Shown: in pieces, positions 36,913 to 37,993 of the stretch | Layout: the number at the start of each line of letters is the position of its first letter | Position numbering within the stretch: the first letter of the stretch is position 1 | NCBI GenBank assembly: GCA_014239155.1 | Contig: JAAZZQ010000003.1 | Coordinates: forward strand, 1-64,000 | Direction of reading: 5' to 3' | DNA from: Lachnospiraceae bacterium | GTDB taxonomy: Bacteria > Bacillota > Clostridia > Lachnospirales > Lachnospiraceae | DNA: 64,000 nt | Position numbers and translations under genes: made by a program | Notes under the pieces: generated by a model | The model's input: only the letters and a program-made list of their open reading frames with translations | Databases searched by the model: none | Told to the model about the DNA's origin: nothing

Positions 36913-37218
36913 TTAAGCGTTGATCTTATCAATCTTAACCTGTGTGTATGCTTGTCTATGACCGTTTTTCTTGTGATAGCCTGTCTTTCTCTTATATTTG
37001 TAGACGATAACCTTTTTGCCTCTGCCCTGCTCCATAACGGTAGCAGAAACAGTTGCGTTTGCTACATCAGCGCCCACTTTAAGAGACTCATTGCTAACAG
37101 CGATAACATTGTCAAAAGTCACAGTGTTTCCTGTCTCTGCATCAAGCTTTTCTACCTTGATGACATCTCCCTCGGAAACCTTGTACTGCTTTCCACCTGT
37201 TGCAATAATTGCGTACAT
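36913..37218 (-). CDS. rplU: 50S ribosomal protein L21
   Basis: Product of 101 residues: [25 protein letters not shown] at the start and [25 protein letters not shown] at the end, both diagnostic of L21. First gene of the rplU-prp-rpmA operon, with AGGAGGTG before the ATG and a near-consensus promoter 80-110 bases upstream. Confidence 0.97.
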
Positions 37219-37300: not shown

Positions 37301-37329
37301 ATATTAACATTGCTGTAAGTTCTTGTCAA
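37301..37329 (-). promoter_or_regulatory. Promoter for rplU-prp-rpmA
   Basis: On the minus strand TTGACA (37324-37329) and TAATAT (37301-37306) are 17 bases apart, close to the sigma-A consensus. Confidence 0.8.
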
Positions 37330-37368
37330 TGTTTTTTCCATCTTAATTTCATATCTGAAACGAAAGAG

Positions 37369-37518
37369 GTTACAGTTCAGTCTAGGACTTTGCACTGTGC
37401 TGCAAATTATGGCTTATATAAGCCACGTAAGAAAACGTAGTGGTTGAGATGCATCAAGCCATGCAAAATCGCTTCGCAATGGCTTGATGCGTTACAGTTC
37501 AGCAAGGCTGAACTGTAA
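37369..37518. mobile_element. Family III MITE-like element with 11-bp flanking direct repeats
   Basis: The element begins GTTACAGTTCAG and ends CTGAACTGTAA, an 11-bp terminal inverted repeat (37370-37380 and 37508-37518). AAACGAAAGAG stands on both sides (37358-37368 and 37517-37527) as a target duplication, overlapping the last two bases of the repeat. Inside are TTTGCA...TGCAAA, the perfect palindrome TGGCTTATATAAGCCA, a long hairpin at 37451-37490, and the terminal hairpin 37492-37518. It has no coding capacity. Its right end supplies the last codons and stop of the neighbouring membrane-protein gene. Confidence 0.75.
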
Positions 37519-37993
37519 ACGAAAGAGAAAATGCCGTTCCTTTTTCACAGACAATCTTTATTTTATTTCGACCTTTCTTTAAATCCAACCTACACTTCTG
37601 TTCCATTGTAGCGCTATCTATTTGTTGATTATCTATTGAATTGCTTTCTTGTTCTGTCAACGTAACAATCGTATTATCTGGCTGTACTAATACTAATTTT
37701 GCCTTTCCACTTGTCACATGTAAAGAATACTGCATCTGTAACGTTATATTTTCCAATACATTATTTTTCCAGATGGTCTCCATACCTGTCATTTTTTCAC
37801 AAGTAATTGTTGTTATTCCATTTTGTTTCTCTTTTTTATAGTTCTTTTTATTGGCAGTATTCAATTCTTTAGAAAGAAGCTGTTTATTATTATATACCTG
37901 AGAAGGTAAAATCAATGTCCCTAACAAAATCACTGTAAATACTGCTACATAAAAGGCTGCAATACCGCCAAAAATAAGAATTTTCTTTTTCAT
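37499..37993 (-). CDS. Membrane-anchored hypothetical protein
   Basis: Product of 164 residues: an N-terminal helix (about 5-30) anchors a soluble domain of about 130 residues, predicted outside the cell and rich in beta-prone residues (LQMQYSLHVTSGKAKLVLVQ PDNTIVTL, then GRNKIKIVCEKGTAFSLSF). Not a recognised family; there is no lipobox. Its final residues TVQPC and stop are encoded by the inserted family III element; beyond the element the old frame would read FQI-stop, so only the tail has changed. It starts two bases after the HEPN gene stop, whose end provides the GGAG site, so the pair is co-translated. Confidence 0.7.
   Translation of the reverse strand: MKKKILIFGGIAAFYVAVFTVILLGTLILPSQVYNNKQLLSKELNTANKKNYKKEKQNGITTITCEKMTGMETIWKNNVLENITLQMQYSLHVTSGKAKLVLVQPDNTIVTLTEQESNSIDNQQIDSATMEQKCRLDLKKGRNKIKIVCEKGTAFSLSFTVQPC

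Follow-up and report, generated by a model that had tools for sequence, protein, structure and literature searches.

Near the end of a small minus-strand gene, the window analyzed here (the whole stretch of 64,000 nucleotides from a Lachnospiraceae bacterium) carries a short segment with inverted termini between direct repeats, which raises the question of what this segment is, what may have moved it and how its folded interior is to be understood. The segment is a non-autonomous miniature transposon (MITE). Its family is probably, with odds of roughly three to one, moved by ISBst12-like transposases of the IS66 family.

Limits of the element and its insertion site

The element occupies positions 37369–37519 (151 bp, non-coding; the plus strand is the chosen orientation of the family). 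Its ends were fixed by comparison with 39 further loci of its own genome, in which the left ends read GTTACAGTTCAG or a near form; the right ends of complete copies read CTGAACTGTAAC, CTGAACTGTTAC, or something close to these, and a right end is missing from several copies (e.g., L018, L024, L033, L037, and L046). In the window, the left terminal inverted repeat GTTACAGTTCAG lies at 37369–37380 on the plus strand and the right one, CTGAACTGTAAA in place of the family form CTGAACTGTAAC or CTGAACTGTTAC, at 37508–37519 on the minus strand, the last base of the element being A where the family has C. The target duplication CGAAAGAG is found at 37361–37368, where its letters were checked, and again at 37520–37527, its length being taken from 125 copies. 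The letters thus contain the element, its inverted termini and the direct repeat on either side, as a preliminary description of the locus had stated. The same description gave a duplication of 11 bp and an element of ~148 bp; the duplication stands, but the sizes become 8 and 151 bp, since the extra AAA is host DNA on the left and element end on the right and hence a coincidence.

The host gene (37499–37993, minus strand) encodes a small protein whose N-terminus looks hydrophobic by eye and which matches no Pfam family above its cut-off. Its open reading frame reads to the end FSLSFTVQPC, the last codons coming from the element, and the triplets CAG ATA TGA lie past the far duplication on the minus strand, both as first described. 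The next gene downstream (36913–37218, minus strand) we take to be rplU, encoding ribosomal protein L21, from its sequence and the gene order. It is preceded on the minus strand by a promoter-like site (TTGACA, 17 bp, TAATAT) at 37301–37329, 39 bp from the element. This site may act as a promoter of rplU; in a relative (L109), TTGACA, 17 bp and TATTAT are seen by eye.

A neighborhood search returned 30 loci including that of the window, with the interrupted gene in five. Genome G016 carries the element at the same site between flanks nearly identical to those of the window; its right duplication reads CGCAAGAG and its element lacks the last base. The empty sites whose search had been proposed have diverged counterparts in all three more distant homologues found (L103, L105, and L109), which lack the element and in which FSLSF or FELSF runs on for three to five residues to a stop. 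At 51–56% protein identity these are not exact empty sites, although L109 retains the target letters AAACGAAAG. Because the homologous genes end in this way, the insertion altered only the last residues of the host protein, and its effect on the gene is small.

Target duplications, copies and spread

Duplication of 8 bp of target is beyond chance in this family. It was measured on 125 elements of 120–200 bp, defined by their ends alone in the loci fetched and held distinct by sequence plus 20 bp of flank, so that orthologous copies and alternative end choices are counted apart. The 8-bp repeat is exact in 61 and has a single mismatch in 34, which gives 95 elements with at most one mismatch; the other 30 have two or more. 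Exact repeats of 7 and 9 bp occur in the same set only two and three times. Shuffling the flank partners yields a mean of 0.54 exact 8-bp repeats, as opposed to the 61 observed, and a shift of the right flank by one base leaves three elements with at most one mismatch. In the range of 100–200 bp, duplications with at most one mismatch accompany 33 of 49 elements in the window's own genome and 62 of 77 in other genomes. Across the 95 good cases, the duplication contains 72% A+T vs. 64% in the preceding 8 bases.

A search with the element gave 66 matches in its own genome, including some in which its palindrome is simply matched in reverse. The motif GTWACAGTTYRG occurs there 179 times as opposed to 15 times for the reversed control, and a 14-base end occurs 2 to 145 times in ten further genomes. 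By these motif counts, the further copies that were to be sought number from one or two to several dozen per genome, mostly with 8-bp duplications. Matches were obtained in 16 of 40 genomes, the window's own included, and all 16 are among the 24 genomes of the window's genus; none of the 16 genomes that represent other families of the order has a match. A 26-base left-end pattern was present in at least 115 stretches of genome contigs, most of them titled Lachnospiraceae; the remaining titles among the matches listed read Eubacterium sp., Clostridia, or name no group. Named strains represented include COE1, IMSAGC_002, Mediterraneibacter agrestimuris DSM 111629, Hominisplanchenecus murintestinalis NM72_1-8, and Parablautia muri. 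COE1 (G054) has the same match places as the genus member G010 and therefore belongs within the window's genus. To judge from their names, the named strains presumably come from the rodent gut.

Collections of phages and plasmids gave no match to the element; a copy is present on one viral contig. A crude call of open reading frames in loci of at least 4.5 kb places 50 of 56 elements with duplications between frames, three inside and three at an edge. Orientation relative to tandem neighbors shows no bias (23 vs. 14, p 0.19). Two copies of 141 bp in one metagenome-assembled genome (L151 and L181) are identical and lie at different sites with different duplications, which indicates recent movement in that genome. 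In IMSAGC_002, contigs end within tens of bases of the left end of the element at seven loci (L135, L141, L142, L152, L178, L189, and L203), a pattern to be expected where an assembly is interrupted by many near-identical copies.

Inverted termini, the 8-bp duplication, homologous sites without the element and many dispersed copies identify the element as a MITE. The initial suggestion of a transposed, MITE-like insertion is borne out by these observations, and a short, non-coding element that bears such ends, makes a duplication of constant length and is dispersed in many copies, none encoding a transposase, is a MITE in the usual sense.

Shorter elements of 30–31, 42, 57, and 68–83 bp are also flanked by 8-bp duplications with at most one mismatch, and some of the short forms lack hairpin 2 or all internal hairpins (see below). 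The ends alone may thus be sufficient for movement, although later internal deletion would look alike. A second element type with GTTACAGTTCAG-like ends and another interior (CCCATTCATAAGTTG... or near) is seen at three loci of the own genome (L058, L064, and L066), with an 8-bp duplication of at most one mismatch at L066. At a further locus of this genome (L067), a MITE copy is split by an insert of ~180 bp and measures 314 bp in all. Composites of 342–395 bp, in which the MITE carries a second inverted-repeat element (CCAATGTCATTAAGTTAAG or near), are found in B91_16_CH_BP (L136, L166, and L180); each has an 8-bp duplication of its own, with one mismatch at L166, and may therefore have moved as a unit.

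Candidate transposases of the IS66 family

Elements of the IS66 family begin with GTAA and make 8-bp duplications, and this family was therefore tested as the source of the mobilizing enzyme. The own genome, which is 98% complete, has no match to PF03050 and none to the transposase of G003 described below. PF03050 matches occur in 16 of 22 other genome handles, among which two pairs represent the same genome by identical match places (G010/G054 and G007/G062). Canonical IS66 transposases of relatives were rejected as candidates, as MITE-like ends accompanied by a duplication of 8 bp are absent from the loci fetched for them; in 21 loci with such transposases, no convincing ends of any sequence were seen.

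Relatives also contain a remote group of single-ORF elements of the IS66 type. Four of them, each ~2.3 kb long, have an exact 8-bp duplication and ends of the form GTTAC[TA][GAT]TTCAC, namely, L255/L276 in G003 (2251 bp, duplication GCTGCTTT), L268 in IMSAGC_002 (2287 bp, AACGGTTC), L278 in G002 (2323 bp, TATCAATA, with a TAG within the transposase frame), and L289 in G023 (2304 bp, AAGAATAG). Compared with GTTACAGTTCAG, the ends of L276 and L268 match at 10 of 12 positions and those of L278 and L289 at 9; with GTAACAGTTCAG, a second MITE end that is common, the same four agree at 8–9 of 12. Ends of the same kind occur without a duplication at L256, L277, and L300, and two ends lacking a duplication (the left end of L256, and L269) match GTTACAGTTCAG at 11 of 12. 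A match of 10 of 12 has a chance probability of 4e-5, a value that serves as a guide only because the searches looked for MITE-like motifs or for ends starting GT[TA]A, so that the likeness is partly selected. In the terminal 90 bases of a few of these elements, inspected by eye, no clear likeness extends past ~12 bases. The proteins of L255, L256, and L268 match PF03050 with E-values of 3.9e-25, 7.5e-22, and 6.6e-18, respectively, and score below the NCBIfam cut-off for IS66. By eye, the ISBst12-like element of L268 (1298–3584 of that locus) sits inside sequence resembling a MITE terminal repeat.

Within the genus, 8 of 38 genomes match the G003 protein, several through fragments, and the L268 protein has matches in three of nine further handles, one by fragments; the copy-rich G010/G054 as well as G059 and G060 have no match to these transposase queries. 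The presence of the transposase does not track the abundance of the MITE. For this reason, and because the own genome has no detectable transposase, the mobilizer is one that we infer. The proposed search for a transposase gene bounded by the same terminal repeats succeeded in part: such genes exist in relatives between similar ends (9–10 of 12 where the ends are confirmed by a duplication), not between the same repeats and not in the own genome. Among the matches listed, no full-length element of 0.7–4 kb with exact MITE ends was recognized by eye, and the long pairs of ends in this size range otherwise consist of two short elements each. In the loci fetched, one long pair spanning 3933 bp (L229) has poor ends, is probably due to chance and was set aside.

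A published parallel exists in ISDge4, an active member of the ISBst12 group. According to the accessible text of its report, ISDge4 carries GTGACTACTCAGCA and GTAACTGCTCAGCA at its ends, with a repeat of 8 bp, CCTCGATG (PMC12898284); the terminal bases GTAACTGCTCAGCA resemble GTAACAGTTCAGCC of the MITE, and both elements duplicate 8 bp. ISDge4 contains a gene for a transposase of 449 residues (PMC12898284), whereas the MITE has none and shows no clear likeness in the interior. Two other IS66 elements have the value 8 in a table column that apparently lists direct repeats, in the consulted portion of a further report (PMC3281130), and IS66 transposition is still described as insufficiently characterized in the ISDge4 text (PMC12898284).

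In the preferred scheme, a full-length insertion sequence would supply in trans a DDE transposase that belongs to the ISBst12-like branch of IS66 with a single ORF; this enzyme would recognize ends of the GTTACAGTTCAG type and would join them to the target with a stagger of 8 bases, the repair of which by the host would leave the 8-bp duplication. In the window, the element would have landed in the last codons of the small gene, just outside the promoter-like site before rplU, and would thereby have replaced the last few residues.

The footprint could instead have been left by a transposase from a different family whose duplications are likewise 8 bp long, the likeness to IS66 ends then being convergent. 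The copy-rich genomes without a detectable ISBst12-like transposase would suit such an enzyme, as would an end match that covers only ~12 bases and is partly selected by the search; however, four insertion sequences of relatives combine similar ends with the same duplication length, as does the published ISDge4 in the text cited above (PMC12898284), and we regard a mobilizer from elsewhere as unlikely. Far less probable still is a fixed structured RNA or regulatory palindrome, of the attenuator or REP-like kind, that is no transposon at all. Such a reading would account for the covarying stems and for the strong folding of the window element, which with short flanks outperforms shuffled versions when either strand is folded as RNA (z −5.5 and −6.4) and, alone and folded as DNA, reaches z −6.7. 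Yet it fails as a complete explanation, since 95 of 125 copies show duplications with no more than one mismatch and homologous sites lack the element; moreover, the element has no match in Rfam. Rfam models matched only rRNA and tRNA in the window, and in five copy-bearing loci gave one weak match, to IMES-2 (23 bits, with 54.7 needed), outside the element.

Hairpins of the interior and known relatives in kind

On the plus strand of the window element, hairpin 1 (TTTGCA/TGCAAA, 37389–37406) is followed by an extra hairpin found in one subfamily only (GGCTTA/TAAGCC, 37411–37424) and by hairpin 2 (GCATCAAGCCAT/ATGGCTTGATGC, 37451–37490). The outer pairs of hairpin 1 are absent in the subfamily of the window copy; covariation of hairpin 1 was measured on relatives without the extra hairpin, and the stem of hairpin 2 likewise covaries in relatives, the window copy lying outside both alignments. 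A third occurrence of the terminal motif (37491–37502) adjoins the right end and could form with it a 3'-terminal hairpin (37491–37518, plus strand), whereas in the RNA fold of the plus strand the two ends of the element pair with each other.

Filtering 94 oriented elements to <92% identity left 66, and 46 of these were aligned (A1); two groups of 20 (A2 and A3) were drawn from the 46, excluding the window copy, members of the extra-hairpin subfamily and any copy in which hairpin 2 is branched. In A2, 96.4% of cells are paired and 13 of 38 pairs are changed on both sides; in A3, the values are 98.5% and 8 of 41, and in either group none of 500 shuffles was as high. Further pair types in A3 are not above shuffles (409/500). 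Slid structures leave 17–44% of cells paired, a comparison biased toward the named structures, each having been named from one member of its group. Across all 46 copies, RNAalifold retains only 23 pairs, seven of them changed on both sides, and nearly loses hairpin 2, since the stems do not align across groups. Between the groups, hairpin 2 differs in stem sequence and looks alike by eye in layout, down to a bulge on the 3' side.

Wobble pairs were counted for signs of RNA on one strand. In the internal helices of A2 and A3 there are 24 G.U vs. 4 A.C cells, a count that contains repeats by common descent and in which 8 of the 24 come from one column. A looser count gave 26 vs. 8 for hairpin 1 and, for hairpin 2, 53 vs. 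46 and 163 vs. 151, the latter two being discarded as noise from overlapping matches. With one match per element, the counts are 18 vs. 4, 15 vs. 9, and 5 vs. 4. We ascribe six G.U at the first position of hairpin 1 to the extra-hairpin subfamily with its lost outer pairs; without them, 32 vs. 17 remain (p 0.044), and hairpin 1 alone gives 12 vs. 4 (p 0.077). Evidence for RNA on one strand is therefore weak.

Over an aligned kilobase, the window and G016 show few differences, and within the element the chief one is an inverted 20-bp segment of the hairpin-2 loop (37461–37480), together with one further change. A loose classifier of loop orientation placed 61 of the 94 elements, 42 as usual only, 18 as both and one as inverted only; the last (L032) was not counted, its 3' arm being missing by eye. 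Among the 18 double fits, the window copy alone is better inverted (0 vs. 4 mismatches), L007 ties and the rest fit better in the usual orientation. Template switching at the hairpin would explain the inversion.

The interior admits two readings, the first of which is compatible with a MITE moved by an IS66 transposase. Somewhat better than even, in our judgment, are the chances that mutation alone, by template switching at quasi-palindromes, produced the covarying hairpins without any function: the loop of the window copy is inverted relative to its orthologue despite almost identical flanks, such events thus seem to occur, and the one-strand signal is as faint as described. Against this stand the layout of hairpin 2 with its 3'-side bulge, kept by eye in copies with quite different stems, and the raw wobble count in A2 and A3. 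That the hairpins are instead kept by selection as folded RNA, which would make the element a mobile, modular structured RNA whose layout is retained while stems are replaced between species, appears doubtful.

BOX and REPIN elements share hairpins, a modular build and many copies with this MITE. To our knowledge, REPINs make no target duplication and go with RAYT transposases, whereas the duplication of 8 bp is clear here. Among published MITEs, QMITE2 of Coxiella (PMC10969869), MITEPye1 (PMC11578231), and MITEPsy1 (PMC3189936) are, in the accessible parts of their reports, likewise short and non-coding with inverted ends and direct repeats, and transcript folding has been predicted for the first two, as here (PMC10969869; PMC11578231). 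Their ends differ from those of the present MITE and their parents belong to other IS families, with IS1182 named for MITEPye1 (PMC11578231) and ISPsy2 for MITEPsy1 (PMC3189936). Several covarying internal hairpins with stems that differ between the copies of different species set the present element apart from these three as far as those parts describe them. The literature surveyed yielded no MITE linked to IS66, and as far as that search shows, the family is new and of an ordinary kind.

The family provides numerous insertions whose footprint is clear, together with a transposase family as candidate mobilizer, and several of its hosts are named strains. Its covarying hairpins make selection and mutation-made palindromes testable against each other and, if selected as RNA, would perhaps protect host transcripts or aid the element's own mobilization.
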